From assembly GCF_018390605.1 (NCBI RefSeq), contig NZ_JAHBGD010000005.1:310001-374000 (forward strand): a stretch of 64,000 bases of DNA, written 5' to 3'. Positions 13,683 through 42,806 of this stretch are shown in pieces. Within the stretch, counting starts at the first letter, position 1. Each line of letters opens with the position of its first letter. A model generated the notes under the pieces. It saw only the letters and a list, made by a program, of their open reading frames with translations. It was not told the DNA's origin and made no database searches. The position numbers were made by a program, and so were the translations under genes. Source of the DNA: Ancylobacter defluvii. GTDB lineage: Bacteria > Pseudomonadota > Alphaproteobacteria > Rhizobiales > Xanthobacteraceae.

Positions 13683-13694
13683 CGATCCAAAAAT

Positions 13695-25464: not shown

Positions 25465-25563
25465 TTGCCTCTGCGACAGGACGTCGATCATTCCGTCAAT
25501 AAAATCCGTGATATAGGCAGCATCGATTGAGTGAAGCGCGGCTTGGTTCGGGGCGGGGATGTC

Positions 25564-26274
25564 ATGACGGAACCGGATGCAGGCAAGGCGTCCCACACGC
25601 TTTCCGGGCAGATCGCCGACGCCTTGCGCCAGCGCCTGCTGATGGGCGAGTTCCTGCCGGGGGCGAAGGTGTCGCTACGCTCGCTGGCCGCAGGCTTCGG
25701 CACCAGCATGCAGCCGGTGCGCGATGCTGTTTCCTCGCTTGTCGCCGAGGACGCGCTGGAGATCACGCCGACGCGGGTCATTCAGGTTCCCGAGCTCAGC
25801 CGGCAGAACTGCGACGATATTTTCCGCATGCGCGTGCTCATCGAGGGCGATGCGGCGGCATTGTTCGTGCGGCGTGCGAGCGAGCAGGAATTTGCCGAAC
25901 TGCAAGCGCTATCGGAGGCGGTGCGGCCGGCGCAACTCGGCATGGCCTTCACCGATCATATGCGCGCACATATCCAGGGCTTCAACGATTGGTCGTTCTT
26001 CGTCGGAGACCGCTGTGGCTCGCCGCTGATGATGACGCTGATCCACCGCCTGCGCGTGCGCATGGCGCCGGTGGTGGCGCTCGCCCTGTGTCGCGATGCC
26101 GACGAGGACTATTCCTTCCTCGAATTCTCCACTCACATCATGATGGAAATGGCCTGGGTGGCCCGCTCGCGCGACGGCGAGCGCATGCGCGACCTGCGCC
26201 GCTCCGACATTCTTACCTATCAGCGCTATCTCTACCGACGACTCGGCTGGACGCTGGATGGGCGCCTCTCCTAG
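25564..26274 (+). CDS. GntR-family (FadR/FCD subfamily) transcriptional regulator
   Basis: A 236-residue regulator. The N-terminal winged helix (IADALRQRLLMGEFLPGAKV, then LAAGFGTSMQPVRDAVSSLV) is typical GntR; the C-terminal all-helical FCD-type domain (about 90-225) has DDIFRMRVLIEGDAAALF and metal-ligand-like residues (Asp143 region, His194, His-containing LIHRLR). ATG 25564 gives the normal start; an in-frame start at 25531 is possible. Four GTGATCAC palindromes lie on either side of it, upstream of two aminotransferase genes, so it is probably a repressor of both, relieved by an amine or amino-acid ligand. Confidence 0.88.
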   Translation: MTEPDAGKASHTLSGQIADALRQRLLMGEFLPGAKVSLRSLAAGFGTSMQPVRDAVSSLVAEDALEITPTRVIQVPELSRQNCDDIFRMRVLIEGDAAALFVRRASEQEFAELQALSEAVRPAQLGMAFTDHMRAHIQGFNDWSFFVGDRCGSPLMMTLIHRLRVRMAPVVALALCRDADEDYSFLEFSTHIMMEMAWVARSRDGERMRDLRRSDILTYQRYLYRRLGWTLDGRLS

Positions 26275-26285
26275 TTCGCTTCTTT

Positions 26286-26421: not shown

Positions 26422-26431
26422 TGTGATCACA
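26422..26431. promoter_or_regulatory. GntR operator candidate 4, TGTGATCACA
   Basis: Perfect palindrome 20 bases before the class III aminotransferase ATG, 136 bases from candidate 3. At this position bound regulator would block transcription start or elongation. Confidence 0.65.
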
Positions 26432-26450
26432 CAAAGCGAGAGGCGCGACG

Positions 26451-27830: not shown

Positions 27831-27899
27831 CCCGGCGCGCAGGACGCGCCTGCCGAAGCGGGGCGGTCTCTGCCGTCCCGGCTTGGCCGAGTTTCTCAT

Positions 27900-28760
27900 A
27901 TGTCCCCGATCGACAAGCTCCTGGCGGTGGCGGTGGTCGCCTGCTGGTCCGCCAATCTCGTGCTGGTAAAGCTCGGGGTGGCGGAAATCCCGCCGCTGCT
28001 GATGAGCTTGCTGCGGTTCATCCTGGTGGCGGCGCTGCTGGTGCCGTTCCGGCGCATCTCCCGCCGGCATCTGCCGTGGATCATGCTGGTGTCGATCACC
28101 TTCGGTGCCATGCATTTCGGACTTCTCTTCATCGCCCTCGGCCTCACCGAGGCCGGCACCAGCGCGGTGCTGGTGCAACTGGGCGCGCCTATGGCCAGCC
28201 TGCTGGCCTGCCTCGTGTTCCGCGAGCCGCTCGGCGTGGTGCGGGCAGCGGGGCTTGCCATGACGGTTGGCGGCGTCGTGGTACTGGCCCTCGGGCCGAC
28301 CTTTCCCGGTCCGCTGGCGCTCGGCCTGCTGATTGCCAGCGCTGTCGGCTGGGCGGTGACCAATCTGGTGGTGAAGATGATGCCGCCGCTGGATGCGATG
28401 GCGTTGACCGGCTGGTCGGCGCTGTTCACCATTCCGCAACTGGCGATCGCCACTTTGCTGTTCGAGGACCATTCCTGGACCAGCCTTGCCGGTGTCGGCT
28501 GGCACGGCTGGGGAGCGGTGATCTATAGCGCGCTGGTTTCCTCGATAATGGCCTATGGCATCTGGTATCGGCTGCTGGCGCGCAATTCGGTGAATGCCGT
28601 CGTGCCCTATTCCATGCTGAATCCGGTATTCGCCATCGGTCTTGGCGCCGTTGTCTTTGGCGAGACGGTGCCGCTGCTGAAGCTGGCGGGCACGTTGCTC
28701 ATCCTGGCCGGTGTCGTGCTGGTCCTGCTGCCGCGCGGAGTGGTGGCGCGGACGGGGTAG
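27900..28760 (+). CDS. EamA/DMT-family transporter (10 membrane segments)
   Basis: A 286-residue membrane protein made of two EamA repeats (about 5-135 and 145-280), each with five hydrophobic segments. Features such as WSANLVLVKLG near 18 and NAVVPYSMLNPVFAIGLGAVVFGE (read as VVPYSMLNPVFAIG and AVVFGE) near 240 are typical of RhtA/YdcZ-type metabolite exporters. It follows the class III aminotransferase by 69 bases on the same strand and may belong to that unit as an exporter for amino acids or amines. It ends six bases from the convergent AraC gene. Confidence 0.85.
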   Translation: MSPIDKLLAVAVVACWSANLVLVKLGVAEIPPLLMSLLRFILVAALLVPFRRISRRHLPWIMLVSITFGAMHFGLLFIALGLTEAGTSAVLVQLGAPMASLLACLVFREPLGVVRAAGLAMTVGGVVVLALGPTFPGPLALGLLIASAVGWAVTNLVVKMMPPLDAMALTGWSALFTIPQLAIATLLFEDHSWTSLAGVGWHGWGAVIYSALVSSIMAYGIWYRLLARNSVNAVVPYSMLNPVFAIGLGAVVFGETVPLLKLAGTLLILAGVVLVLLPRGVVARTG

Positions 28761-28766
28761 GGTGGC

Positions 28767-29720
28767 TTAGCCGCGCCGGGTATATTCCAGCGGCGAGATG
28801 CCGGTCGCGGCCCGGAAGACGCGGCTGAAATAGGCCGGTTCGGAAAAGCCGACCGCATAGGCGATGGAGGAGATCGAGGCGCGCGTGAGGTCGCGGGTAT
28901 CGAGCAGCCGGCGCGCTTCCAGAATGCGGCGGCTGCGGATCGCGCCCGACAGCGTCTCGCCGTGGTCGGCGAAGATCTTCTGAAGATAGCGCTCGGATAG
29001 CTTCAGCGCGCGCACGACGTCGCCGGCACCGAAATCGGGGTCGCGGAAGCGGGTGTCGATCACCTGCAGCGCGCGCTGGCGATGGGCGAGGCGTACCGCC
29101 GTCTCGTCGCAGTTGCGATCGGCGCCCGCAATGACGAGGGCCAGCAGGTCGAGCATGTGCCCGGTAATGCGGTGGCCGATTGCGGGATCGATGGAAATGC
29201 CGTGGCTGCAGAAGGAATTGGCGAAATCCAGGAAGAGGCGCACCATGACCTGGTCGCCGAAATCATGCGCCGTCCAATCATTGATGTTGGGCGTGCGCTC
29301 GCGCATGGCGGAGCCGGGAAGGCGGAGGCTGTGGAAGGTCGCGGTTCTCGGCTGGTCATAGTCATAGGCTTCCAGCGAGCTGACGAAGGCGAACCGGCCC
29401 GGCGCGAGATCGGCATGTCGGCCGCGCTGGCGGAAGGACAGGCCCTCGTCCAGCAGCACCGGCAGGAAGTAGAAATCCTCCGGCTTCCGGGCGATCAGCG
29501 GTGCCGTGCGCCGCACATACACCGGATCAGAGTGGTATCTGGCGAGCCGGATGCCGGCGATGTCGACGCTTTGCACCCAGCCCCTCGCGAAGTCCGGGCC
29601 TGCGCTGAGGTCGACGGCGTAGAAATATTCGTGCTGAGCCTCGGCCCATGCCTGCCGTCGACGGGCGGGGTGCAGGTGGGCGACGTCGAACCGGCTCACG
29701 ACAGTCATGGCTTCGTTCAC
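28767..29720 (-). CDS. AraC-family transcriptional regulator
   Basis: A 317-residue regulator with an N-terminal AraC-binding-like effector domain (about 20-195, including the conserved DFYFLPVLLDEG patch) and a C-terminal double helix-turn-helix (about 215-315: ALKLSERYLQKIF and IAYAVGFSEPAYFSRVFRAATG). This is the FeaR/AraC-binding-like branch. Start at ATG 29720; ATG 29708 is an alternative. It is divergent from the hyuA-led operon beginning at 30030 and is the natural candidate for its regulator. Confidence 0.88.
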   Translation of the reverse strand: MNEAMTVVSRFDVAHLHPARRRQAWAEAQHEYFYAVDLSAGPDFARGWVQSVDIAGIRLARYHSDPVYVRRTAPLIARKPEDFYFLPVLLDEGLSFRQRGRHADLAPGRFAFVSSLEAYDYDQPRTATFHSLRLPGSAMRERTPNINDWTAHDFGDQVMVRLFLDFANSFCSHGISIDPAIGHRITGHMLDLLALVIAGADRNCDETAVRLAHRQRALQVIDTRFRDPDFGAGDVVRALKLSERYLQKIFADHGETLSGAIRSRRILEARRLLDTRDLTRASISSIAYAVGFSEPAYFSRVFRAATGISPLEYTRRG

Positions 29721-30029: not shown

Positions 30030-32102
30030 ATGACCTATCGCATCTCCGTCGATACGGGCGGCACCTTCACCGATGTCATCGTCAGCGACGGTACTGGCAG
30101 CTTCATCATCGGCAAGGCGCTGACCACGCGCAGCCGCATCTTCCTCGGCATGCGCGACGCCATCGAGTCGGCGGCGCTGCAACTCGGCATACCGCTTGAG
30201 ACATTGCTGGCCGAGGCCGAGCTGCTGATCTACGGCACCACCCGCGCCACCAATGCCATCGTCACCAAGACGGTGGCGAAGACCGCCTTCGTCACCACGG
30301 CCGGCTTTCCCGACACGCTGCTGCTGAAGGAGGGCGGCAAGTTCAACCCGCACGATTTCAGCCAGGATTATCCCGATCCCTATATCGCCCGCCGCCACAC
30401 TTTCGAGCTGACCGAGCGCGTGGGCGCCGACGGCGCCGCCTCGATCCCGCTTGACGAAGTGCAGGCGCGCGAGGTGATCGCCAAGCTCAAGGCGCGGGCA
30501 TTCGAGGCGGTGGCGGTGTGCCTCTTGTGGTCCATCGCCAATCCGGCGCATGAGATGCGCTTCGCCGAATTGCTGGACGAATTGCTGCCGGGCGTGCCCT
30601 ACACGCTCTCGCATCGGCTCGTGCCGGTGGTGCGGGAATATCGCCGCGCGTCGGCCACCGCCATCGATGCCTCGCTGAAGCCGCTTATGCAGGATCACCT
30701 GCGCGGGCTGGAGAAGGATCTCAAGGCGGCAGGCTTTGCCGGGCAGGTGCTGGTCAGCACCACCGAAGGCGGCTGCAACCATATCGACGCGCTGGTCGAG
30801 AAGCCGATCTATACGGTCGGCTCCGGCCCGGCCATGGCGCCGATCGCCGGGTTGACCTTCTCCACTCTCGAAACGCTCGGCAACGACGTCATCATTTGCG
30901 ACACCGGCGGCACCACCTTCGACGTCGGGCTGGTGCGCGACGGGCGGCTGACCTTTACCCGAGACACCTGGCTGGGGCCTGCCTATACCGGTGACCTGCT
31001 CGGCATCTCCGCCGTCGATATGCGCTCCATCGGTGCCGGCGGCGGGTCGATCGCCTGGATCGACGATGGCGGGCTGATGCGCGTCGGACCGCAATCGGCC
31101 GGCGCCGAGCCGGGCCCGGCCTGCTATGGGCGCGGCGGCACGCTGCCGACCGTTTCCGATGCCGCCGTGGTGCTCGGCTATTTCGATCCCGACTATTTCC
31201 TCGGTGGCCGGATGAAGCTCGATGTCGAGGCGGCGCAGCGCGCCGTGGCCACGGTGGCGGAGCGCATCGGTCTTTCCGTCGAGGAGACGGCGTTCCGCAT
31301 CCTCAGCCTCGCCAGCGACCTGATGATGCGCGCCATCGCCGACATCACCGTCAATGAGGGTGTCAATCCGCGCGAGAGCACCATCGTCGCCGGTGGCGGC
31401 GCCGCCGGCATCAACATCATGACCATCGCCAAGGAGCTCGGCTGCGAACGGGTGATCCTGCCCAAGGTCGCCTCGGCGCTCTCGGCTTCCGGCATGCAGT
31501 TCGCCGATATCGTCGCCGAAGAGACGGCGAGCCTTGTCACGCTGACCAATCGTTTCGATGCCGCCATCGTCAATGAGGTGCTGGCGGGATTGGAGGCCAG
31601 GCTGGAGACGTTCCGCGCCACCCTGCCGGGCGCGAAGGGAGACTACCGCATCGATCTGGTGGCCGAGGCCCGCTATCTCGGCCAGGTGTGGGAACTCGAC
31701 ACGTCGTTGCCGGTGCGGCGCTTCGAGAGCGATGGCGATCGCGCCGCGCTCATCGAGGCCTTCCACCAGGTGCATGAGCGCGTCTTCGCCGTGCGCGATC
31801 CCGGCAGCCCGGTCGAGGTGGTGAACTGGAAGGCCCGGCTGGTGGTGAACCTCGCCAAGCCGCCGGAACCCGAGGCCGCCGCCGCGCGCCTTGTCGGCGG
31901 CGCCCCGACCGGGATGCGCGACTGCTTCTTCGGCGACCGCACGCCGTTGTCCACCGCCATCTACAAGGCCGCCGACGTCGCGCCCGGCCTCGTCATTGCC
32001 GGCCCGGCCATCGTCGAGGAGCCGACCACGACGCTTGTCGTCTACCCCGGCATGTCGGCCGAGGTCAGCGCCACCGGCAACTACCTGCTGCGCATCGCTT
32101 GA
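30030..32102 (+). CDS. hyuA: HyuA-type subunit 1 (hydantoinase/oxoprolinase/acetone-carboxylase family)
   Basis: A 690-residue protein of the ASKHA fold. DTGGTFTDVIV at the N-terminus and CDTGGTTFDVGLVRDG near 290 form the ATP phosphate-binding loops; GAGGGSIAWIDDGGLMRVGP (read as GAGGGSIAW) and PGPACYGRGGTLPTVSDA are conserved across HyuA and acetophenone/acetone carboxylase subunits. Together with HyuB it would use ATP to open a lactam or imide ring or to activate a carbonyl; the substrate is unknown. ATG 30030 follows GAGGA. First gene of a 10-gene rightward unit; its partner subunit starts 14 bases downstream. Confidence 0.9.
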   Translation: MTYRISVDTGGTFTDVIVSDGTGSFIIGKALTTRSRIFLGMRDAIESAALQLGIPLETLLAEAELLIYGTTRATNAIVTKTVAKTAFVTTAGFPDTLLLKEGGKFNPHDFSQDYPDPYIARRHTFELTERVGADGAASIPLDEVQAREVIAKLKARAFEAVAVCLLWSIANPAHEMRFAELLDELLPGVPYTLSHRLVPVVREYRRASATAIDASLKPLMQDHLRGLEKDLKAAGFAGQVLVSTTEGGCNHIDALVEKPIYTVGSGPAMAPIAGLTFSTLETLGNDVIICDTGGTTFDVGLVRDGRLTFTRDTWLGPAYTGDLLGISAVDMRSIGAGGGSIAWIDDGGLMRVGPQSAGAEPGPACYGRGGTLPTVSDAAVVLGYFDPDYFLGGRMKLDVEAAQRAVATVAERIGLSVEETAFRILSLASDLMMRAIADITVNEGVNPRESTIVAGGGAAGINIMTIAKELGCERVILPKVASALSASGMQFADIVAEETASLVTLTNRFDAAIVNEVLAGLEARLETFRATLPGAKGDYRIDLVAEARYLGQVWELDTSLPVRRFESDGDRAALIEAFHQVHERVFAVRDPGSPVEVVNWKARLVVNLAKPPEPEAAAARLVGGAPTGMRDCFFGDRTPLSTAIYKAADVAPGLVIAGPAIVEEPTTTLVVYPGMSAEVSATGNYLLRIA

Positions 32103-32116
32103 GAGGGGACTCGACC

Positions 32117-33904
32117 ATGACCGCCGGTACACATGCCGAGTTCGACCCCTACCTGACCGCGATCATCGCCAATCGCGTCGACGGCATCGTGCGCGAGATG
32201 ACGCATACGCTGCTGCGCGCCGCCCGCTCGGCGGTGATCAACAGCGCCCGCGACTTCAGCTGCTCGATCTGCACCGGCGACAATCAGCTGCTCGCCTCCG
32301 CCGAAGGCCTGCCGATCCACATCTTCGGCAGCCACATGCAGACCCGCGCCATGGCCGACTTCCATGGCGCCGATATCCGCGAAGGCGATTGCTACCTGCA
32401 CAACGACCCGTATTCCGGCAACACCCACGCCGCCGACCACACCTTTCTGGTGCCGGTGTTCTTCGAAGGCGAGCACCTGTTCACCACCGTCGCCAAGGCG
32501 CACCAGGCCGATATCGGCAATGCGCTGCCCACCACCTATTCCGCCACCGCCCGCGATCAGTACGAGGAAGGCGCTCTCATCTTCCCGGCGGTGCGGGTTC
32601 AGCGCGACTATGTGACCGACGAGAATGTCGTGCGCATGTGCCGCTCGCGCATTCGCGTGCCCTCGCAATGGTATGGCGACTTCCTGGCCGGCATCGGCTG
32701 TGCCCGCGTCGGCGAGCGGCGGCTGAAGGAGCTGTGCGACAAATATGGCAAGGAGCGCATCAAGGTCTTCATCCGCGACTGGCTGGACTATTCCGAGCAG
32801 CGCATGGTGCAGGCGATCCGCAAGCTGCCGGCCGCGACCCTGACCAATACTGGCGCGCACGATCCTTTCGGTACCCTGTTGCCGGACGGCATACCGCTGA
32901 AGGTGACGGTGAGGATCCAGCCCGATGAAGGCCTGATCGATCTCGACCTCACCGACAATGTTGACAATGTCGATTGCGGTTTCAACGAGAGCGAGGCCTG
33001 CGCCACCTCCTCGACGGTGGCGGGGGTATTCAACTCGATCGATTCCACCGTGCCGCGCAATTCCGGCTCCTTCCGCCGCATCAACGTGCATCTGCGGGAT
33101 GGCGCCGTCGCCGGCCGGCCGAAATTCCCGCACAGCTGCTCGGTCGCCACCACCAACATCGCCGACCGGCTGATCAACATCGTGCAGTCGTCCTTCGCGC
33201 AGATCGGCGAAGGCTGGGGGCTGGCGGAGGGCGGCGTCGGCATGGGCGCGGGCTTTGCGGTGATCTCCGGCAAGGATGACCGCAGCGACGACGGCGCCTT
33301 CGTCAACCAGCTGATCATCACCGGCGCCGGCGGGCCGGGTGCGCCGGCGGCGGATGGCTGGCCGACCTACGCGCTGCCGGTGGTCGGCGGGCTGATGTAC
33401 CGCGACAGCGTGGAGATCGACGAGCTCAAGCATCCGATGCGCTTCCATTTCCTGCGCATCCTGCCCGGCACCGGCGGGGCAGGGCGCTTCCGTGGTGCGC
33501 CGGCGATGGAACTCGCCTACGGCCCGACCAAATTCGCCATGGATGTGCTCTGGCCGTGCGACGGTACCCACTACCCGCCAAAGGGCGTGCGCGGCGGGCA
33601 GGACGGCACCTGCGCCCGGCACTTCCGGGTGGAGGCCGACGGCCGCGAGACCGAGCTGCCCAACATCGTCAACCTTCGCCTCGAGAAGGGCGCCTATGTG
33701 CGCGGCAACCACACGTCCGGCGGCGGCTATGGCGATCCCCGGCAGCGCGATCCGCGCCGGGTACTGAAGGACGTCCTCGAAGGCTACGAGACCGAGGCCC
33801 GCGCCCGCGACCTGTACGGCGTCGTGCTCACCGGCCGCATCGAGGACGAGACGCTCGATATCGACAATGAAGCGACCGTCGCCCGTCGCGCCCCGGCGAA
33901 CTGA
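32117..33904 (+). CDS. hyuB: HyuB-type subunit 1 (hydantoinase B/oxoprolinase family)
   Basis: A 595-residue protein. Family landmarks: NRVDGIVREMTHTLLRAARS near 20, GDCYLHNDPYSGNTHAADHTF near 92 (read as DCYLHNDPYSGNTHAAD), RVPSQWYGDFLAG, STVPRNSGSFRRI and the C-terminal GGGYGDPRQRDP. HyuB carries the hydrolytic or carboxyl-transfer half of the enzyme. ATG 32117 has GAGAGGGGAC upstream. It pairs with the preceding HyuA; a small zinc-type protein gene follows 30 bases later. This pair is only distantly like the second pair at 39084-42806, by eye. Confidence 0.9.
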   Translation: MTAGTHAEFDPYLTAIIANRVDGIVREMTHTLLRAARSAVINSARDFSCSICTGDNQLLASAEGLPIHIFGSHMQTRAMADFHGADIREGDCYLHNDPYSGNTHAADHTFLVPVFFEGEHLFTTVAKAHQADIGNALPTTYSATARDQYEEGALIFPAVRVQRDYVTDENVVRMCRSRIRVPSQWYGDFLAGIGCARVGERRLKELCDKYGKERIKVFIRDWLDYSEQRMVQAIRKLPAATLTNTGAHDPFGTLLPDGIPLKVTVRIQPDEGLIDLDLTDNVDNVDCGFNESEACATSSTVAGVFNSIDSTVPRNSGSFRRINVHLRDGAVAGRPKFPHSCSVATTNIADRLINIVQSSFAQIGEGWGLAEGGVGMGAGFAVISGKDDRSDDGAFVNQLIITGAGGPGAPAADGWPTYALPVVGGLMYRDSVEIDELKHPMRFHFLRILPGTGGAGRFRGAPAMELAYGPTKFAMDVLWPCDGTHYPPKGVRGGQDGTCARHFRVEADGRETELPNIVNLRLEKGAYVRGNHTSGGGYGDPRQRDPRRVLKDVLEGYETEARARDLYGVVLTGRIEDETLDIDNEATVARRAPAN

Positions 33905-33934
33905 CGAGCCCCGACCCGCACCCAGGAGAAGAGC

Positions 33935-34126
33935 ATGCGTTTCTCGGCCAACCGCCTCTACATCGAAGCCTATGAGAAGTGCCCGAACTGCGGCGTGCTG
34001 CTCTACGACAATCCGGGCGCCCGCGCGTCCTGGGTGATCCAGAACGGCAAGACCTATTGCTCGCAATGGTGCGTGACCTGGGAAGCCGACCGCGCCGCGC
34101 GGCGGGCATCCGCCCCCACCAGCTGA
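33935..34126 (+). CDS. 63-residue putative zinc-binding protein, possible third subunit
   Basis: Starts at ATG 33935 with a good ribosome site (AGGAGAAGAGC). The protein has two paired cysteine motifs, CPNCG near 16 and CSQWC near 42, a classic spacing for one structural zinc. The middle is GARASWVIQNGKTY and the tail is basic and Ala-rich. I do not recognise a named family. Its place directly after hyuB1 suggests an accessory subunit; acetone and acetophenone carboxylases have extra small zinc-containing subunits, a precedent by analogy only. Confidence 0.75.
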   Translation: MRFSANRLYIEAYEKCPNCGVLLYDNPGARASWVIQNGKTYCSQWCVTWEADRAARRASAPTS

Positions 34127-34252
34127 CGAGCCCGCCTTTCCCCCCTGCGGGGAGCGCTGCCTGCGTGCGTGCGGCCTCCGGCGAAACGACGTCCCCCCTC
34201 GATGTGAACGGTGCGCCACGGGCGCCCCACTCTTGCTGATGGAGCAGACCGG

Positions 34253-35446
34253 ATGAGAAAGTTGCTTTATGCGCTGTTCGGCAGCGTGGTCACCCTGCTG
34301 CCCCTGCAGCCGGCCCGCGCCGCCGACGAGATCACCCTCGGCATGGCCGTCGCCTTCTCCGGCTGGATGGAGGCCTATGACGGCGAGGCCTCCAAGATGG
34401 CGCAGCTCTGGGTCGAGGAGCAGAACGCCAAGGGCGGCGTGCTCGGCAAGAAGATCAAGGTCATCACCGCCGACACCAAGACCGACCGTGTCGAGGGCGC
34501 CAAGGCCGGCAAGCAGCTAGTCGACGCGGGCGCCGACATGCTGCTGGTCTCGGCGGATTACGACTACGGCGCTCCCGCCGCGCTACAGGCGCAGAAGGCC
34601 GGCATCATCTCGGTGTTCATCGGCGCTTCCGACCCCAAGGCCGGGGTGCTCGGCGTCGGCCCGCTCTCCTTCACCGCCAACAACGCCGCCCAGCTCGAGG
34701 GCGCGGTTATGGCCGAGTGGGGCTATGAGAAGAAGGGCCTGCGCAAGGGCTACATGCTGGTCGACGAGACGCTCGAATACAACAAGTCCGCCTGCGCCGG
34801 CTATGAATGGATGCTGCCGCTTAAGAAGGGCGAGCTGGTCGGGCAGGATTCCTTCAAGAGCCAGGATGCCACCATTTCCTCGCAGGTCACCCGCCTGTCG
34901 GAGGCGATCCGCACCAAGGGCGTCGACCACGTCATGCTGTGCTCGGCCAACCCGGCGGCGGCGAGCGCGCTGCGCCAGCTGCGGGCGGCGGGCATTGCCA
35001 TTCCGGTGCTGTCGGCGACCGCGATGGACGGCACCTACTGGGTGAATTCGGTGCCGGGCCTCAAGGATTTCTTCCTGCCGGTGCAGGCGTTGGTGAAGGA
35101 CGATCCGCGTCCGGACGTGAACGCGCTGACCGTTGCCTTCGAGAAGAAATACGGCAAGCCGCCGACCACGCAATACGCCTACCCGATCTATGCCTTCCTG
35201 CAGATGTGGGCAGCGACCGCCGCCAAGATTGGCACCATCGACAGCAAGTCCGTGGTGGCGGCGCTGAACGAGACGAGCGACTTCCCCACCGTGATCGGCC
35301 CGCGCTCCTTCTCGCCCAAGCTGCACATCCAGACCCGGAACCCGATGTTCGTCGTCTCCTATGAGGGCGACAAGGAGACCTCGGTCGGCGAGTGGACGAT
35401 CAGCCAGGCCATTCCCGACCCGGTGCTCTACCGGCTGAAGAAGTAG
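34253..35446 (+). CDS. Branched-chain amino-acid/amide ABC transporter substrate-binding protein (LivJ-type)
   Basis: A 397-residue periplasmic protein with a signal peptide ending at ARA-ADE (about 22). ITLGMAVAFSGWMEAYDGE, read as ITLGMAVAFSGW, is the Peripla_BP_6 start; VEEQNAKGGVLGKKIKVITAD and the YPIYAFLQMWAAT region also fit. It delivers the substrate to the LivFGHM complex encoded next. Because the operon is full of hydantoinase-family enzymes, the ligand may be a cyclic amide, ureide or related compound rather than leucine. ATG 34253 is chosen; GTG 34211 would disrupt the signal peptide. Confidence 0.9.
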   Translation: MRKLLYALFGSVVTLLPLQPARAADEITLGMAVAFSGWMEAYDGEASKMAQLWVEEQNAKGGVLGKKIKVITADTKTDRVEGAKAGKQLVDAGADMLLVSADYDYGAPAALQAQKAGIISVFIGASDPKAGVLGVGPLSFTANNAAQLEGAVMAEWGYEKKGLRKGYMLVDETLEYNKSACAGYEWMLPLKKGELVGQDSFKSQDATISSQVTRLSEAIRTKGVDHVMLCSANPAAASALRQLRAAGIAIPVLSATAMDGTYWVNSVPGLKDFFLPVQALVKDDPRPDVNALTVAFEKKYGKPPTTQYAYPIYAFLQMWAATAAKIGTIDSKSVVAALNETSDFPTVIGPRSFSPKLHIQTRNPMFVVSYEGDKETSVGEWTISQAIPDPVLYRLKK

Positions 35447-35461
35447 CTGCCGCGCCGCTTC

Positions 35462-35486
35462 CGGCCGGCGGACACCCCGCCGGCCG
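35462..35486 (+). promoter_or_regulatory. Intercistronic stem-loop after the binding-protein gene
   Basis: CGGCCGGCGG-ACACC-CCGCCGGCCG forms a perfect 10-base-pair stem with a 5-base loop, 16 bases after the binding-protein stop and before the first ATPase gene. No T-run follows. Such hairpins commonly protect the upstream message or cause partial termination so that binding protein exceeds membrane components. Confidence 0.7.
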
Positions 35487-35509
35487 TCCCGCAACCGCAG
35501 GATGCCCGG

Positions 35510-36292
35510 ATGAGCGAAACTCCCGCCTTCATCGAGCCGCCCTCGCTCGGCGTCGATCGCGCGCTGACCAATGCGGCGACGCTCGCCGCCGAGGGGCTGT
35601 CGGTGCGCTTCAGCGGCCTGCTGGCGATTTCGGACGTCACCATCCGGCAGGCGCGCCACGAGATCCTCGGGCTAATCGGGCCGAACGGCGCCGGCAAGAC
35701 CACACTCGTCAACTGCCTGACCGGCTTCCAGAAGCCGAGCGAGGGGCGGGTGATGCTGGGTGACGAGGACACCGCCGGCTGGTCGGCGGCGCGCTTCCGC
35801 GCCCATGGCATCGCCCGCACCTTTCAGGCGGGACGGCTGTTCAAGGACATGACCGTGGCCGAGAACGTCGAGGTGACCGGCGTCGGCCTCGGCCTCGGCC
35901 TGAAGGCGGCGCGCGAGCACGCGATGGCGATGCTCGGCTGGATCGGCCTTGCCGACAAGGCGCGGGCCAAGGCCGGCACGCTCGCCTATACCGACCAGCG
36001 CCGGCTGGGCATCGCCCGGGCGCTGGTGCTGTCGCCGGCGTTCATCCTGCTCGACGAGCCGGCGGCCGGCATGTCGGACGCTGAATGCGAGGAACTGATG
36101 ACCCTCGTCTCCGCGATACCCAAGACCTTCACCTCCGGCGTGCTGCTGATCGAGCACAATATGCGGGTGGTGATGGGCATCAGCCACCGGGTGCAGGTGC
36201 TCGATGGCGGCAAGACGCTCGCCGAGGGTTTGCCGGCGGAAATCCAGAAGCATGAGGCGGTGATGGCCGCCTATCTCGGCATGGAGGCCTGA
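35510..36292 (+). CDS. ABC transporter ATPase, LivG-type
   Basis: A 260-residue ATPase. Walker A GPNGAGKTT near 64, signature region TLAYTDQRRLGIARALVL near 160 and Walker B FILLDEPAAGMSD near 182; the loose signature (AYTDQRR) is normal for LivG. An N-terminal tail of about 25 residues precedes the domain. It energises the LivH/LivM permease with the LivF-type ATPase, whose ATG shares one base with this stop (TGATG). Confidence 0.92.
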   Translation: MSETPAFIEPPSLGVDRALTNAATLAAEGLSVRFSGLLAISDVTIRQARHEILGLIGPNGAGKTTLVNCLTGFQKPSEGRVMLGDEDTAGWSAARFRAHGIARTFQAGRLFKDMTVAENVEVTGVGLGLGLKAAREHAMAMLGWIGLADKARAKAGTLAYTDQRRLGIARALVLSPAFILLDEPAAGMSDAECEELMTLVSAIPKTFTSGVLLIEHNMRVVMGISHRVQVLDGGKTLAEGLPAEIQKHEAVMAAYLGMEA

Positions 36293-37041
36293 TGGGCGCG
36301 CTCCTCACCATCGACGACGTGCATGTGCGCTATGGCGATCTCGTCGCCCTGCGCGACGTGTCGCTCACCGTGGCGCAGGGCGAGGTGGTCTGCGTCATCG
36401 GCCCCAACGGCGCCGGCAAGTCGACCCTGCTGGCGGCGGTCGCCGGCGGCGTGACGCCCTGGCGCGGCTCGATCCGCTTCGGCGACACCGAGGTGGTGGG
36501 TCTGCGACCCGAGGTCGTCGCCCGGCAGGGGCTTTCGCTGGTGCCGGAAGGACGGCACATCTTCGGCACGCTGACCGTCGACGAGAACCTGCGGATCGGC
36601 GGTTTCATCCACAAGGGCCGCGCCGACGCCAAGGCGGATTACGAGCGGCTGCTCGAACTGTTTCCCCGACTGCGCGAGCGGCTGAACTTTCCCGCCGGGC
36701 GGCTGTCGGGCGGCGAGCAGCAGATGCTGGCGGTCGCCCGCGCGGTCATGACCCGGCCCCGCCTGCTGCTGGTGGACGAGCCTTCGCTTGGCCTCGCCCC
36801 GCGCATCGTCGACCAGATCTACGAGATCCTGCTCGACCTGCGCCAGCGCGAGGGTCTGACGCTGGTGATCAACGAGCAGAGCTCCAACCGCATCCTGAAG
36901 CATGCCGACCGCATCTATGTGCTGCGCGGCGGGCGCATCCAGCTGGAAGGCCGCGCCGCCGATCTCGCCGATGGCGAGGCGATCCGCAGCGCCTATTTCG
37001 GCTTCGGCTCCCCGGCGACCCTGGAGGGAGTGACCCCATGA
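36292..37041 (+). CDS. ABC transporter ATPase, LivF-type
   Basis: A 249-residue ATPase. Walker A GPNGAGKST near 37, signature LSGGEQQMLAVARA near 138, Walker B LLLVDEPSLGLAP near 157. The second nucleotide-binding subunit of the same importer. Start overlaps livG by one base, stop overlaps the permease gene by four, so the ATPases and permeases are coupled. Confidence 0.92.
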   Translation: MGALLTIDDVHVRYGDLVALRDVSLTVAQGEVVCVIGPNGAGKSTLLAAVAGGVTPWRGSIRFGDTEVVGLRPEVVARQGLSLVPEGRHIFGTLTVDENLRIGGFIHKGRADAKADYERLLELFPRLRERLNFPAGRLSGGEQQMLAVARAVMTRPRLLLVDEPSLGLAPRIVDQIYEILLDLRQREGLTLVINEQSSNRILKHADRIYVLRGGRIQLEGRAADLADGEAIRSAYFGFGSPATLEGVTP

Positions 37042-37952
37042 TCGGGTTCCTGCAAAACCTCATCGACGCCGTCAGTCTCGGCAGCATCTACGCCTTGACC
37101 GCGCTCGGCATCGGGCTGCTGTTCGGCATATTGCGGCTGATCAACTTCGCCCATGGCGACTACATCACCATCGGCGCCTATGCGCTGATCGTCCCTTCCG
37201 CCGACGTGACGGCCCGCCTGCTCATCGGCGATCTGCCGCTCATCGTGATGACGCCGCTGATCTGCCTCATCGTCGTGGTGGCGGCGCTGCTCTCCGACGT
37301 GCTGGTGTTCCGGCCGCTGCGCCGCGCTTCCTCGCCGACATTGATGATCGCCTCCTTCGCCGTCAGCTACATCATCCAGAACGGGGTGATGATGCTTTAC
37401 GGCGCGCGGCCCAAGGCTGTGGACCTGTGGAGCGGCGCCAACACCCAGATCCTGATCGGCGACCTCCGGGTGCCGATGCTGCAGCTGATCATCCTCGTGG
37501 TCACGCTGGTGCTGATGACGACGCTGACGCTGTTCCTGAGGAAGACCCCCTACGGCATCCAGATGCGCGCCGCCGCCGAGGATTTCCGCATGGCGACCTA
37601 TCTCGGCGTGCGCGGCAACCTCGTCATCGGCCTCGCCTTCGCCATCAGCGGTATCCTCGCGGCGGCGGTGTCGCTGCTCTACACCACGCAATCCGGCTCG
37701 CTCAGTCACACCATGGGTCTGCCGCTCGCCCTGTTCGCCTTCGTAGCGGTGGTGGTGGGCGGCATGGGCAGCCTGGTCGGCGCGGTGGTGGGCGGCTTCA
37801 CCATCGGCATCATCGTGACCATGCTCCAGGCCTATCTGCCGCCTGAGCTGCGCGCCTTTCGCGACGCCTTTGCCTTCGCCTTCGTCATTCTGGTGCTGCT
37901 GGTGCGGCCGGCCGGGCTGGTGCCGTCGCGCACCAGCTTCGAGCGCGTGTGA
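37038..37952 (+). CDS. ABC transporter permease, LivH-type
   Basis: A 304-residue membrane protein with about eight segments. The start FLQNLIDAVSLGSIYALTALGIGLLFGI is typical of LivH (read as SLGSIYALTALGIGL), and the EAA-like loop is TYLGVRGNLVIGLAFAISG near 190. GGMGSLVGAVVGG near 238 is also conserved. It forms the channel with the LivM-type subunit. Confidence 0.92.
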   Translation: MIGFLQNLIDAVSLGSIYALTALGIGLLFGILRLINFAHGDYITIGAYALIVPSADVTARLLIGDLPLIVMTPLICLIVVVAALLSDVLVFRPLRRASSPTLMIASFAVSYIIQNGVMMLYGARPKAVDLWSGANTQILIGDLRVPMLQLIILVVTLVLMTTLTLFLRKTPYGIQMRAAAEDFRMATYLGVRGNLVIGLAFAISGILAAAVSLLYTTQSGSLSHTMGLPLALFAFVAVVVGGMGSLVGAVVGGFTIGIIVTMLQAYLPPELRAFRDAFAFAFVILVLLVRPAGLVPSRTSFERV

Positions 37953-37964
37953 GGAGTGGGAGCG

Positions 37965-39044
37965 ATGCGCGATTTCCTGATCCGCCACCAGACGCCGGCG
38001 CTGCTGGTCGCCGGGCTGGTCGTCGTCACCGTGCTGGGAGTGCTGACCGGCAACGAGACGGTGCAGGTGACGCTGACCGAGATGTTCATCCGCCTCGTGG
38101 TGGTCGTCGGGCTGTGGGTGTTCATCGGCAATTCCGGCATCATCTCCTTCGGCCATATCGGCTTCATGGGCGTCGGCGCCTATGCGGCCGCCTGGGCCTC
38201 CGCCGAGCCGGGCTTCAAGCAGATCATGCTATCCGGCCTGCCGGTGTTCCTGCAGGAAAACCAGTATCCCTTCGCCTTCGCCATCATCGGGGCGACGCTG
38301 CTGCCGGCGCTGGTCGCGCTGCTGCTCGGCATCGCGCTGATGCGGCTTGCCGGCACCGCCGCCTCGATCGCCACCTTCGCGGTGCTGATGATCGTCAACA
38401 GCGTCTATGCCAATTGGGATTCCGTCACCGCGGGTTCCTCCTCCATCATCGGCATCCCGACGGTGGTCGGGCCGTGGGTGGCCGTCGGCTTCGCCGCCGG
38501 CGCAGTGGTCACCGCCTATCTGTTCCAGGTCTCCCGCCTTGGCCTGATGCTGCGCGCCTCGCGCGACGACGAGGTGGCCGCGCGCGCCTCGGCGGTGGAG
38601 GTGAAGCGGATGCGGCTGGTCGCCTTCGTGCTCAGCGCCGCCATCGCCGGCGCCGGTGGCGGGCTCTATGCGCAGTTCCTCGGCATCCTCACCATCGACC
38701 CGTTCTATCTCGGGCTCACCTTCATCACCCTCGCCATGCTGGTGGTGGGGGGCATGTCGAGCCTTTCGGGCGCGGTGGCCGGGGTGTTCGCGGTGACCAT
38801 CATCGTCGAGCTGCTGCGGATCGCCGAGCGAGGCGTTTCGCTTGGCGCGCTCGACCTCGGGCTGCCGCTCGGCAGCCAGGAGATCGGTCTCGGCGTGCTG
38901 ATGGCGCTGATCCTGATCTTCCGTCCCAACGGCCTCTCCAACGGGCGCGAGCTGGTCTGGCCAGGCGCCGCCCCGGCCGCCAAGGCCCCGGCCGGCCGCA
39001 CCTTATCACCCGAGCTGACCGGCGATGCCGCGCCGTCGCCGTGA
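37965..39044 (+). CDS. ABC transporter permease, LivM-type
   Basis: A 359-residue membrane protein with about nine segments and the LivM pattern GNSGIISFGHIGFMGVGAYA (read as SFGHIGFMGVGAYA) near 52 and SRDDEVAARASAVEVKRMRL near 195, the cytosolic loop toward the ATPase. ATG 37965 is preferred to GTG 37956 because TGAGGAG then sits at the right distance. The last 30 residues are an Ala/Pro-rich tail. Last transporter gene; the second hydantoinase-family pair follows after 39 bases. Confidence 0.92.
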   Translation: MRDFLIRHQTPALLVAGLVVVTVLGVLTGNETVQVTLTEMFIRLVVVVGLWVFIGNSGIISFGHIGFMGVGAYAAAWASAEPGFKQIMLSGLPVFLQENQYPFAFAIIGATLLPALVALLLGIALMRLAGTAASIATFAVLMIVNSVYANWDSVTAGSSSIIGIPTVVGPWVAVGFAAGAVVTAYLFQVSRLGLMLRASRDDEVAARASAVEVKRMRLVAFVLSAAIAGAGGGLYAQFLGILTIDPFYLGLTFITLAMLVVGGMSSLSGAVAGVFAVTIIVELLRIAERGVSLGALDLGLPLGSQEIGLGVLMALILIFRPNGLSNGRELVWPGAAPAAKAPAGRTLSPELTGDAAPSP

Positions 39045-39083
39045 TCACCATCCTTCCGACATTCGAGACAAAGGGCAGAAACG

Positions 39084-41105
39084 ATGAGCACCAGATTCGG
39101 CGTCGACATCGGCGGCACCTTCACCGATTTCGTCGCCTATGACGAAGTCGGTCGCACCCTCAAGGCCTGGAAGAACCTGTCGACGCCGGAAAACCCGATC
39201 CAGGGCATCATGACCGGGCTGCGGACGTTCGGCGATCTCGACGCCATCGAGGCGGTGCGCCTTGGCACCACGGTCGCTACCAACGCGCTGCTGGAGGGCA
39301 AGGGAGCCCGCGTCGCCTATGTCACCACGGCAGGGTTCCGTGACATCCCGTTCATCGGCCGCGGCAACCGCAAGCATCACTACGACCTCGCCTGGGTGAA
39401 GCTGAAGCCCTTCCTCAAGCGCCGCGACGCGCACGAGATCCGCGAGCGGATCGACGCAAGCGGCAGCGTGGCCGAGCCGCTGGACGAGGAGGGCGTCGCG
39501 CGCCTCTCCGACCAGCTGCGCGAGGCCGGCGAGATCGAGGCGGTCGCGGTGGTGCTGCTGCATTCCTACCTCACGCCTGTGCATGAGCGGCGAGTGAAGG
39601 AGATTTTCGCCGAGCACCTGCCGGGCGTGCCGGTGTCGATCTCCTACGATGTGCTGCCGAAGTGGAAGGAGCATTTCCGCGCCTCCACCACCATCTGCGA
39701 CGCCTTCATCAAGCCAGTGGTGGCGCGCCAGCTCGGCTCGATGCGCGCCGAACTCGACGCCAACGGCATGCGCGCGCCGGTGGTGGTGATGCGCTCCAAT
39801 GGCGGCGAGATGAGCCTCGCGGGGGCGGTGGAGGCGCCGATCCAGATCGCGGTGTCCGGTCCTACCGGCGGGGTGATCGCCGCCAAGCGTACCTCCGAGC
39901 TGCTGGGCCTTCGCAATCTCGTCACGCTAGACATGGGCGGCACCTCCACCGATGTCTCCACCGTGGTCGACGGCAAGGAGAAGTTCACCACCGATTTCGA
40001 GATCGAGTGGGGCCGCCCGATCCAGATCCCGATGATCGACATCCGCACCATCGGCGCCGGCGGCGGCTCCATCGCGCGGATCGATGCCGGCGGCATGCTG
40101 GTGGTCGGGCCGGAGAGCGCCGGCGCCAATCCGGGCCCGGCCTGCTACGGGCGCGGCGGCACGCTGCCGACCGTCACCGACGCCAATGTGCTGCTGGGCC
40201 GCATCAGCCCGGACAATTTCCTCGGCGGGTCGATGGCGCTCGACCGCGAGGCTGCGGCCAAGGCGGTGCAGCCGATCGCCGAAACGCTGGGCCAGTCCAT
40301 CGAGGAGGTGGCCTTCGCCATCGTGCGCATCGCCAACAACAACATGGTCGGCGCGCTGCACACCGTGCTGACCGAACAGGGGCTCGACCCGCGCGATTTC
40401 ACCCTGGTCACCTTCGGCGGTGCCGGGCCGCTGCATGTCAGCGATCTGATGGAGGAGGCCTCGATTCCCAACGGTCTGGTACCCAACTTCCCCGGACAGT
40501 TCTCCGCCTTCGGCTTCACCATGGCGGATGCGCGCGTCGATCGCTACCGCACCGTGCAGCTCAACTCGCGACGCTTCGACCGCGCGCGGGCGGCGGCGGC
40601 GATGGCCTCGCTGATCGAGGAATGCCGTGCCGAGCTGGCGACGCAGGGCCATGCGGATGCCGGCGTCACCTGCAGCGTCGAGATGCGCTATCTCGGCCAG
40701 AACTACGAGCTGGAGATCCCGGTCGAGGCGGAAAGCTTCTCCGACGAGGAAGTCGCCGCCATCCTCGAGACCTTCCATGCCCAGCACGAGGCGCGCTTCG
40801 GTTTTCGGCTCGCCGATCATGTCGAGATCGTCAACTTCCTTGTCACCGGCACAGCCCGCACCGGTTCGCTGGAATTTCCTCTGGTCGGGTCGGCCGACGC
40901 CACATTGTCGGTGCGCTCGCGCCGGCCGGTATGGTTCGCCGGCGGCTGGCGCGACACGCCGATCTACGACCGGGCGGACCTGAAGGAGGGGCACCTCGTC
41001 GAAGGGCCGGCCCTGGTGGAGGAGAACGCCTCCGTCACCGTGCTGAACCCCGGCATGACGCTCAGCGTCGACCGCTACGGCAACCTTCTCATTTCGGCCA
41101 ACTAG
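39084..41105 (+). CDS. hyuA: HyuA-type subunit 2 (hydantoinase/oxoprolinase/carboxylase family)
   Basis: A 673-residue ASKHA-fold protein. ATP loops are DIGGTFTDFVAYDE at the N-terminus and DMGGTSTDVSTVVDGKEKF near 285; VVMRSNGGEMS, SGPTGGVIAAKRTSELLG and TFGGAGPLHVSDLMEE are all canonical. This is the more standard HyuA of the window, close to N-methylhydantoinase or acetophenone-carboxylase alpha-type sequences. ATG 39084 follows AGGGCAGAAACG. Forms a pair with the gene 12 bases downstream. Shares only the general family pattern with the first HyuA, so it is not a recent duplication. Confidence 0.92.
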   Translation: MSTRFGVDIGGTFTDFVAYDEVGRTLKAWKNLSTPENPIQGIMTGLRTFGDLDAIEAVRLGTTVATNALLEGKGARVAYVTTAGFRDIPFIGRGNRKHHYDLAWVKLKPFLKRRDAHEIRERIDASGSVAEPLDEEGVARLSDQLREAGEIEAVAVVLLHSYLTPVHERRVKEIFAEHLPGVPVSISYDVLPKWKEHFRASTTICDAFIKPVVARQLGSMRAELDANGMRAPVVVMRSNGGEMSLAGAVEAPIQIAVSGPTGGVIAAKRTSELLGLRNLVTLDMGGTSTDVSTVVDGKEKFTTDFEIEWGRPIQIPMIDIRTIGAGGGSIARIDAGGMLVVGPESAGANPGPACYGRGGTLPTVTDANVLLGRISPDNFLGGSMALDREAAAKAVQPIAETLGQSIEEVAFAIVRIANNNMVGALHTVLTEQGLDPRDFTLVTFGGAGPLHVSDLMEEASIPNGLVPNFPGQFSAFGFTMADARVDRYRTVQLNSRRFDRARAAAAMASLIEECRAELATQGHADAGVTCSVEMRYLGQNYELEIPVEAESFSDEEVAAILETFHAQHEARFGFRLADHVEIVNFLVTGTARTGSLEFPLVGSADATLSVRSRRPVWFAGGWRDTPIYDRADLKEGHLVEGPALVEENASVTVLNPGMTLSVDRYGNLLISAN

Positions 41106-41117
41106 GAGGTCCTGCAC

Positions 41118-42806
41118 ATGGACATGGTTTCGCTGAACATCGTCGGCGGCATCCTCGTTTCGATCTGCCGCGACATGGGGGTCACGCTGATGCGCACCTC
41201 CTATTCCACCATCTTCTCGGAATCGCTGGACTTCACCTGCGGTCTCGCCTTGCCGACGGGCGAACTGATCGCCACCGGCGACTTCTGCCCCTCGATGATC
41301 GGCGGCATGCCGCTGCTGCTACGCTCCTGCGTGCAGGAGATTCCGCTCGACGAACTTGAGCCGGGCGACGTCATCCTGCACAACGATCCTTATCGCGGCG
41401 GGCTGCACACCCCGGAGCACACCTTTTTCAAGCCGGTGTTCCTCGAGGGTGAGTTGATCGGCTTCGCCGTCGCCATCGGCCATGTCTGCGAGGTCGGCGG
41501 CATGGCGCCGGCCGGTTTCGCCGGCGAGGCGACCGAGGTCTTTCACGAAGGGCTCCGGGTTCCGCCGGTCAAGATCATCCGCGCCGGCAAGGACGTCGAC
41601 GACGTCTGGCGGCTGCTGCTCGCGAATGTGCGCACCCCTCGCTACAATTACGGCGACTTCCGCGCGCTGATCGCGTCCATCGATCTCGGCGAGCGGCGCA
41701 TGAAGGAACTGGCCGCCAAGCACGGCGTCAAAGCCTTTGGCGAGCATGTGCACGCACTGATGGACTATGCCGAGCGCCGCATGCGCGCCGAGATCGAGAA
41801 GATCCCGGACGGGCGCTACCGCTTCGAGGACGTCATGGAAGACGACGGCATCGAGGACAAGGTCTACACCATCCGCGTCGAGGTCACGGTGGATGGCAGC
41901 GACGTCATCATCGACTATCACGGCTCCTCACCGCAGGCGAAGGGGCCGATCAACGCCACCCTCGGCGTGGCACATGGCGCTGCCTATAACGCGCTGCTGC
42001 AGCTGACGGATTCCACCATTCCGAAGAATTCCGGCTGCTTCCGGCCGATACGGATCCTCGCCGAGCCGGGCAGCATGCTCAATGTCAATTTCCCCGGCCC
42101 ATCGGTCGGCGGCAATACCGAGAGCCATTGCCGCATCGCCAATGCAGTGATGGGTGCGCTGGCGCCGGCGGTGAAGGAGCGTTCGGCCGCGACCGACGGC
42201 GCGACCCATTCGAACTTCCTGTTCGGCGGCACGGATACCGAGACCGGCGAGTTCTTCTGCTGCTATGACCTGACCCCCGTCGGCTGGGGCGGACGCAGCT
42301 TTGCCGACGGCAACGACGCCGTGGGCGGCATCAACGGCAATTGCCCCCATATTCCGGTCGAAGTGTTCGAGTTCCGTTTCCCCTGGCATATGGAGGAATT
42401 CCGGCTGGTGGACGGCTCCGGCGGACCGGGGCAGTTCCGCGGCGGCCTCGCCCTGACCAAGACGCTGCTCTGCACCGATACCGACATGACCTTCAGCTAT
42501 ATGAGCGACCGCCAGAAGGTCTCGCCCTGGGGTATCCACGGCGGCGGCGAGGGGGCCAAGGCGGAGTTGTTCATCAAGCGCCAGGGCAGCGACGAGTGGC
42601 TGACCGCGACCCAGGCCTTCAACAAAGTCTCCCCGTCCAAATTCGCCAACGTGCCGGTGCGGCCGGGTGATCGCGTGAAGATCTCGTCGCCGGGCGGTGG
42701 CGGCTGGGGCGCACCGGCCGATCGCGATCCGGAGCTGATCCGCGAGGACATGGCGGATGGCTTCATAACGGAGGAGCAGTTTCGCACCGTTTATGCCCAG
42801 GCATGA
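41118..42806 (+). CDS. hyuB: HyuB-type subunit 2 (hydantoinase B/oxoprolinase family)
   Basis: A 562-residue protein. SICRDMGVTLMRTSYSTIFSE (read as DMGVTLMRTSYSTIFSE) near 16, GDVILHNDPYRGGLHTPEHTF near 85 (read as VILHNDPYRGGLHTPEHT), STIPKNSGCFRPI and SPGGGGWGAPADRDP are the HyuB landmarks. Shorter than the first HyuB by about 33 residues. ATG 41118 has AGGAGGTCCTGCAC upstream, a strong site. Last gene of the operon; a hairpin lies just after the stop. Confidence 0.92.
   Translation: MDMVSLNIVGGILVSICRDMGVTLMRTSYSTIFSESLDFTCGLALPTGELIATGDFCPSMIGGMPLLLRSCVQEIPLDELEPGDVILHNDPYRGGLHTPEHTFFKPVFLEGELIGFAVAIGHVCEVGGMAPAGFAGEATEVFHEGLRVPPVKIIRAGKDVDDVWRLLLANVRTPRYNYGDFRALIASIDLGERRMKELAAKHGVKAFGEHVHALMDYAERRMRAEIEKIPDGRYRFEDVMEDDGIEDKVYTIRVEVTVDGSDVIIDYHGSSPQAKGPINATLGVAHGAAYNALLQLTDSTIPKNSGCFRPIRILAEPGSMLNVNFPGPSVGGNTESHCRIANAVMGALAPAVKERSAATDGATHSNFLFGGTDTETGEFFCCYDLTPVGWGGRSFADGNDAVGGINGNCPHIPVEVFEFRFPWHMEEFRLVDGSGGPGQFRGGLALTKTLLCTDTDMTFSYMSDRQKVSPWGIHGGGEGAKAELFIKRQGSDEWLTATQAFNKVSPSKFANVPVRPGDRVKISSPGGGGWGAPADRDPELIREDMADGFITEEQFRTVYAQA

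Follow-up and report, generated by a model that had tools for sequence, protein, structure and literature searches.

Gene content of the cluster

The 64,000-nucleotide stretch of Ancylobacter defluvii DNA analyzed here (contig NZ_JAHBGD010000005.1, positions 310,001 to 374,000; hereafter the window) carries ten plus-strand genes at 30030-42806 that encode two HyuA/HyuB enzyme pairs, a 63-residue protein with four cysteines (Cys4), and a Liv-type ATP-binding cassette (ABC) importer. Comparison with related loci and genomes assigns the small protein to HyuA2/HyuB2, the second pair, and not to HyuA1/HyuB1; the resulting assembly, HyuA2-HyuB2-Zn, is best read as a variant with three components in a family that has been described as having two.

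The operon begins with HyuA1 (30030..32102; Pfam Hydant_A_N, Hydantoinase_A, and Hydant_A_C) and HyuB1 (32117..33904; Hydantoinase_B), the ATP-binding and metal-site subunits of an enzyme placed on the caprolactamase branch, followed by the Cys4 zinc-type protein (33935..34126). The importer comprises a periplasmic binding protein (34253..35446; Peripla_BP_6), a LivG-type ATPase (35510..36292; ABC_tran and BCA_ABC_TP_C, with NCBIfam LivG as best match under its cut-off), a LivF-type ATPase (36292..37041; ABC_tran, with its order conserved in relatives), a LivH-type permease (37038..37952; BPD_transp_2, with NCBIfam LivH as best match under its cut-off), and a LivM-type permease (37956..39044; BPD_transp_2). 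HyuA2 (39084..41105; also assigned by Pfam) and HyuB2 (41118..42806; Hydantoinase_B, 566 bits), the ATP-binding and metal-site subunits of the candidate three-component enzyme, complete the series. From hyuA1 to hyuB2, the successive genes are separated by 14, 30, 126, 63, -1, -4, 3, 39, and 12 bases, and an AraC-family regulator (28767..29720, minus strand; HTH_18 and AraC_binding_2) diverges from them. Pfam confirms the family of every operon protein except the 63-residue one; for the binding protein, Pfam and NCBIfam gave general Liv-type matches that do not name a substrate.

The original prediction of a ten-gene operon with two non-identical HyuA/HyuB pairs, one complete Liv-type importer, and one small zinc-type protein is borne out by the single strand, the short gaps, the divergent araC gene, and the identity between pairs (38% for HyuA and 29% for HyuB). 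In A. sonchi (L013), gene content and order are identical and the proteins are 85-97% identical, and we rejected chance juxtaposition since the order is the same there. A consensus scan of the plus strand found no terminator-like or promoter-like sites inside 30030-42806, a weak negative given scan totals no higher than in shuffled sequences; the 126-base gap between the small protein and the binding protein could hide a promoter. The window cluster is a rare accessory cluster, since the small protein was found in just 4 of 61 searched genomes, the window's own included, and in 2 of 30 within the genus Ancylobacter.

The small Cys4 protein accompanies HyuA2 and HyuB2

Scanning genome contigs with a HyuB2 alignment gave 256 relatives, from which the best 80 loci were kept and searched with a profile of the small protein's module (threshold E <0.01). 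The module was present in 62 of these 80 best loci, always on the HyuB2 strand: after hyuB2 in 29 (in L051, at 11704-11869), ahead of the liv genes, the window arrangement, in 16, just before hyuA2 in 10, between hyuA2 and hyuB2 in 3, and fused to the N-terminus of HyuB2 in 4 (L064, L074, L075, and L084). In three loci from other families of the order (L014, L015, and L018), the small protein lies behind hyuA2 and in frame with hyuB2, with fused open reading frames of 625 residues in L014 and 645 residues in L018. The 18 loci without the module came from 14 genomes, 13 of which carry it elsewhere; the sole remaining genome was reached through a 9-kb contig of a metagenome-assembled genome (MAG; L032).

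In a second test, module and HyuB profiles were run against 397 genomes of the order. Six genomes gave strong module hits (E 2.7e-21 or better), and the same six carry HyuB2 (934-1047 bits); the next best HyuB scored 484 bits, while some HyuB at E 1e-100 or better was present in 163 of the 397. One further module hit, in G390, was marginal (E 4.2e-4) and contained an internal stop. The co-occurrence of module and HyuB2 gave a Fisher p of 1.9e-13, with genomes taken as independent although they are related. Because of the fusions and the co-occurrence, we assign the small protein to pair 2. A partnership with pair 1, next to whose hyuB1 the gene stands in the window, was rejected as contradicted by the HyuB2 fusions, the 62 of 80 loci, and the 397-genome test. 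No third gene was found for pair 1.

The cysteines of the small protein follow the pattern C16-x2-C19-x22-C42-x3-C46, and 13 module columns, all four cysteines included, are invariant among 43 sequences. The pattern presumably resembles that of TRASH/FCS fingers. The window protein had no Pfam match over cut-off; among the 43 module members, 5 match PF24273 (best 4.6e-6) and 8 match zf-FCS (best 4.4e-5), counting E values up to 1. The predicted fold combines a zinc knuckle, a hairpin, and a helix at the second cysteine pair (mean predicted local distance difference test score, pLDDT, 83). Sequence searches of solved structures gave no relative (best E 0.53 and 0.23), and a fold search found no structural match at E <=0.001, with YacG, small ribosomal-protein chains, and the LMBL2 FCS finger as weak look-alikes. 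An AlphaFold model of the fused L075 protein reached an overall pLDDT of 77, with residues 1-37 and 53-67 below 50 and no docking readable. PF08882 (Acetone_carb_G) did not match the module and was not found in the window's genome, and kinship of the module to the acetone-carboxylase gamma subunit was undetected by hhalign (12 columns, probability 36%) with a gamma set of four sequences. The module may serve in metal delivery or in structural support of the changed metal site described below.

A changed metal site in a separate clade

The metal ligands of CapB, the metal-binding subunit of caprolactamase, are Asp41, His99, Asp102, and His124, the last three being fully conserved in the family according to PMC8453981. 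HyuB1 keeps all four ligands (Asp-His-Asp-His), and HyuB2 has Glu for the second Asp, so that H-x-x-E replaces H-x-x-D. The substitution for Asp102 was found in all 80 related loci: 91 of the 92 motif matches have E, with at least one per locus, and the lone D belongs to the HyuB1 of L019. In a 55-row HyuB alignment, E is present in 30 of 30 HyuB2 rows and D in 24 of 24 readable others, one of the 25 non-HyuB2 rows being cut short and two of the 24 D rows being one gene seen twice. These D rows include caprolactamase, acetone- and acetophenone-carboxylase types, HyuB1, and its counterpart in relatives, HyuB1x. HyuB2 also has Phe for Tyr136, a change seen in several other groups. The ATP-site residues D11, T15, D18, K32, D295, T299, and D302 (CapA numbering) are kept in both HyuA1 and HyuA2.

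In trees of 53 HyuA and 55 HyuB rows, HyuA2 and HyuB2 each form a clade of their own (Shimodaira-Hasegawa-like approximate likelihood ratio test, SH-aLRT, 100), and HyuA1 and HyuB1 cluster with CapA and CapB, the caprolactamase pair of a Pseudomonas fluorescens locus, L048 (SH-aLRT 96 for HyuA and 94 for HyuB). A mixture-model tree was built from 38 of these HyuA rows, after removal of 15 near-duplicates or fragments; it gave support of 100 for the HyuA2 clade and 97 for the grouping of HyuA1 with CapA. The branch in this tree that separates three carboxylase-type rows from all others had a support of 10, and the branch that leaves out also two gamma-fused rows had 93. Carboxylase-type rows were named from an adjacent PF08882 gene (acetone carboxylase, or Acx, type: L105 and L110), and acetophenone carboxylase (Apc) rows L106 and L107 by gene order and a gamma gene; for L106, Apc models were the best match for all three proteins, far below cut-offs.

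The HyuA2/HyuB2 clade spans three phyla (Pseudomonadota, Bacillota, and Verrucomicrobiota MAGs). In eight loci (L060, L062, L063, L066, L069, L076, L078, and L089), from MAGs recorded as alphaproteobacterial or kin, two or three HyuB2 genes stand in a row behind a single hyuA2. HyuB2 relatives are also found on plasmids, at 55% identity in Agrobacterium vitis / Allorhizobium and at 49% in Halalkalicoccus.

A larger gene set conserved in relatives

The borders in the original prediction were too narrow, missing four genes upstream of araC: a class IV aminotransferase of amine-transaminase type (AT4; 24249..25190, minus strand; Aminotran_4), a GntR/FCD regulator (25531..26274, plus strand; GntR and FCD, 31% identical to the GntR of relatives' clusters), a class III omega-aminotransferase (AT3; 26451..27830, plus strand; Aminotran_3), and a putative EamA-family membrane exporter (27900..28760, plus strand; EamA, 87% identical in A. 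sonchi). Among 22 close loci (HyuB2 at least 76% identical), several of which are cut off by a contig end or by the limit of the fetched flank, 17 combine the module and hyuA2B2 with all five Liv genes; Liv and aminotransferase genes were counted from 45% identity upward. AT4 was present in 17, AT3 in 15, and both in 13, counts that take in a short AT4 piece in L027 and two AT3 at 45%; GntR matched in 17, two of them weakly. The usual order in relatives is hyuB1x, gntR, zn, the binding-protein gene, livGFHM, AT4, hyuA2, hyuB2, AT3, with hyuA1x preceding hyuB1x where the locus reaches far enough, as in L016. The window holds the same gene kinds rearranged, with AT4, gntR, AT3, and the exporter just upstream of araC. 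The AT4, GntR, and AT3 types belong to the gene set conserved in relatives, and we count both aminotransferases, GntR, and the exporter as part of the system.

The window AT4 shares 60.6% identity with its L016 counterpart, which lies between livM and hyuA2. The best solved relative of the window AT4 is 8zm7 ("Amine transaminase"), and its 26 solved relatives at E 1e-60 or better include 3wwh, 3wwi, and 5fr9 ("(R)-amine transaminase") as well as chains named D-amino-acid or branched-chain aminotransferase. The best solved relatives of the window AT3 are 9j4y, 9j2k, and 6tb1; it is 40.6% identical to the L016 AT3, a copy cut at the locus end, whose closest solved relatives are 6tb1 and 6g4b, which we take to be the caprolactam-pathway enzyme of Pseudomonas jessenii.

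Beside AT4 lies a periplasmic binding protein of SBP_bac_3 type (23106-24152, minus strand), which may be linked to the cluster. Elsewhere in the same genome, L111 (contig C11, 4306-11052) has the order araC-AT3x-hyuA1x-hyuB1x, with AT3x, hyuA1x, and hyuB1x 74, 80, and 82% identical to their L016 counterparts, and L112 (C25, 732-739k; locus 7375-14080) has AT4x-hyuB1-hyuB1-hyuA1, with two HyuB1-like genes for one HyuA.

Neighbors in relatives and the substrate class

A 21.7-kb Shinella locus (L046) carries hyuA2-hyuB2-zn followed by GabT (542 bits, cut-off 507) and the succinate-semialdehyde dehydrogenase SSADH (697 bits, cut-off 646), with the L-2-hydroxyglutarate oxidase LhgO (594 bits, cut-off 299) nearby. 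Genes of the GabT, SSADH, and LhgO types would take gamma-aminobutyric acid, or by analogy 5-aminovalerate, onward. Of 58 distant loci, 16 have the GabT cluster, 10 the LhgO cluster, and 7 the GabD cluster, with the L046 members being the ones scored. In L048, CapA and CapB (1177 and 1135 bits, cut-off 1000) stand divergently beside hyuA2-hyuB2-zn, and an AraC-type gene adjoins them. The cyclic amides named among the substrates in the original prediction are accordingly the likely class, on the evidence of the GabT/SSADH/LhgO and CapAB neighbors and the grouping on the CapAB side.

Other neighbors were also recorded. At L083 (13387-17641), a PxpA-like gene (over two cut-offs) and biotin-carrier-like and biotin carboxylase genes directly follow hyuA2-hyuB2-zn-AT3, the PxpB- and PxpC-like genes there being named by eye and by a scored L016 homologue; members of two of the L083 neighbor clusters also lie near L024 and L036. 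The three-part enzyme has a MIOX/HD-type protein as its neighbor in Pseudomonas, Caballeronia, and Paraburkholderia (L048, at 11780-12484, L073, and L087), with the L048 member just over its Pfam cut-off.

Proposed function and alternative explanations

Overall, we consider it probable, from gene content and sequence comparison, that the cluster serves lactam utilization by Liv-type import, ATP-dependent ring opening, and transamination. The importer would bring in a lactam or related cyclic amide, HyuA would phosphorylate its iminol form with ATP, and the activated ring would pass to the HyuB metal site to be opened to an amino acid, a mechanism taken from the caprolactamase report (PMC8453981). 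The class III and class IV aminotransferases could then convert the ring-opened amino acid to an oxo acid. HyuA1B1 would be a two-part ring-opener of the caprolactamase branch and HyuA2-HyuB2-Zn a three-part one, with the treble-clef-like Cys4 protein as its dedicated subunit, assembly factor, or metal-delivery factor. The two ring-openers most likely work in parallel, each on its own lactam or stereoisomer. That a substrate must pass through both pairs in turn is unlikely, since a different HyuAB pair replaces pair 1 in Methylobacterium and others and pair 1 is not seen in the Shinella locus; the two-step breakdown by both enzymes in the original prediction is unlikely for the same reasons. 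Its wording of ring-opening or carboxylating enzymes survives in part: two ATP-dependent HyuAB types are present, and carboxylation is the less likely reaction because the trees place both pairs on the side of caprolactamase, although in the mixture-model tree the branch that sets apart the carboxylases alone has a support of 10.

Several observations weigh against lactam utilization as set out here. All four Hyu proteins score far under the NCBIfam caprolactamase cut-offs (NF050156/NF050157; 543/263 bits for pair 1 and 508/311 for pair 2, against 1000), and the CapAB grouping is uncertain given the long branches, of which the tree program warns. Among solved structures, the top match of both HyuA2 and HyuB2 bears the name N-methylhydantoinase, with caprolactamase behind it, and Cys4 third subunits have otherwise been described in carboxylases (PMC5214803 and PMC5543143). 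The relatives with GabT and GabD beside them have HyuB2 proteins of about 57-61% identity and are not the close ones, and the window AT3 is only 41% identical to that of relatives. The 397-genome test scored up to 15 module and 3 HyuB candidates per genome, besides its treatment of related genomes as independent.

Other explanations were also considered. The aminotransferases might deaminate an imported chiral amine and HyuA2-HyuB2-Zn carboxylate the resulting ketone with ATP and bicarbonate in the style of acetone carboxylase and its zinc-binding gamma subunit, as would fit both the closeness of AT4 to amine transaminases and the small Cys4 partner of HyuA2B2, acetone and acetophenone carboxylases having a Cys4 gamma subunit (as described in PMC5214803 and PMC5543143). 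We find this unlikely: HyuA2B2 stands apart from the carboxylase-type rows (the mixture-model supports of 10 and 93), the module has no detectable kinship to gamma, HyuB2 has 562 residues compared with 684 and 776 in the carboxylases (PMC8453981), the neighbors in relatives are GabT/SSADH and CapAB, and no CoA ligase or thiolase is present among the 15 genes at 24249-42806. Unlikely, too, is the use of hydantoins or N-methylhydantoins, with the HyuAB pairs opening them to N-carbamoyl amino acids. The structure 7hk5, named N-methylhydantoinase, is the best solved match of HyuA2/HyuB2 and the second best of HyuA1/HyuB1, but the same 15 genes include no HyuC-type carbamoylase, aminotransferases need free amines, and the neighbors in relatives point to omega-amino acids. 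It is highly improbable that HyuA1, HyuA2, and one or both HyuB form a mixed complex with the zinc protein. Two HyuA-type genes do share one operon, and acetophenone carboxylase has alpha and alpha-prime subunits, both HyuA-type (PMC5214803), but in the window each HyuA is paired with a neighboring HyuB, relatives' loci have pair 1 exchanged or show none, and the ATP residues are intact in both pairs, with at most one metal ligand changed.

Lactam utilization also admits a more specific and rather doubtful form, in which HyuA2-HyuB2-Zn would be a third structural type in the hydantoinase/ketone-carboxylase superfamily, a lactamase with a dedicated treble-clef metal-handling subunit suited to its glutamate-bearing metal site, feeding a stereo-complete alphaproteobacterial pathway (S-type class III plus R-type class IV aminotransferase). 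If true, both enantiomers of a ring-opened chiral amino acid would be used, giving a natural role to (R)-amine transaminases. More generally, the cluster offers a testable natural role for the adjoining amine-transaminase types. Since five- and six-ring lactams are hard to hydrolyze (PMC11033972), new ATP-dependent lactamases could also be of practical use.

Comparison with known systems

Searches of the open-licence literature turned up no characterized operon of identical order and nothing that, judged by title and abstract, covers the cluster or module. The caprolactamase CapAB/OplAB of P. jessenii and Pseudomonas putida KT2440 shares with the window enzymes the ATP-binding A and metal B subunits and the kept ATP residues, with HyuB1 its metal residues, and with the cluster a nearby omega-aminotransferase. 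Unlike in caprolactamase, the vicinal disulfide Cys410-Cys411 is absent (V-V in HyuB1 and N-gap in HyuB2), pair 1 is only 35%/29% identical to the L048 pair and under the NCBIfam cut-offs, and pair 2 has a third component and the E metal ligand. The lhgO-gabDTP genes of Escherichia coli and the P. jessenii caprolactam cluster, which contains an lhgO homologue (PMC6061476), find their counterpart in the lhgO, gabT, and gabD types beside HyuA2B2-Zn in Shinella L046 and, by clustering, in Mesorhizobium; those genes are not seen beside the window operon, which has a Liv importer instead.

Acetone carboxylase AcxABC likewise has three components, one of them a small Cys4 protein, but the module has 63 residues, a different cysteine spacing, a position at the HyuB N-terminus when fused, and no detectable gamma kinship, and HyuA2B2 lies outside the Acx-type rows in the trees. 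The gamma subunits described in PMC5214803 (Cys22, 25, 75, and 78) and PMC5543143 (XaAc; Cys74, 76, 124, and 127) both differ in spacing from the window module. Acetophenone carboxylase also combines HyuA-type and HyuB-type genes with a small Cys4 subunit, and differs in gene order, in the separate clade of HyuA2 and HyuB2, and in the NCBIfam ApcA/C/D cut-offs, which the window proteins do not reach (HyuA2 scores 317 with ApcC, against 1500). A search of 190 genomes with NF042976 for acetophenone-carboxylase relatives gave no match at E 1e-100 in any of them. A separate Ancylobacter genome (G017) has at L109 (915-11028) a HyuA, a HyuB with an in-frame C-terminal Cys4 domain of acetone-carboxylase-gamma type, Liv-type genes, and a class III aminotransferase 55% identical to AT3x. 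This makes two distinct modes of attaching a zinc domain to HyuB; L108 carries a similar fused HyuB.

TRASH/FCS treble-clef fingers resemble the module in its predicted fold and in the weak Pfam matches of a few members, but the window member has no such match and no structural match is significant. Measured against the Hyd amidohydrolases, both pairs have Hydantoinase_A and Hydantoinase_B domains and the ATP-site residues; pair 2 departs from the two-gene organization by its co-occurring third gene. According to PMC5214803, hydantoinase clusters consist of two genes and no Hyd complex has a gamma subunit. This two-gene rule would be broken by a clade on the lactamase side that spans three phyla and has both a changed ligand and a Cys4 third component of no apparent kinship to gamma, and such a clade gives a clean test of what a small Cys4 subunit does.

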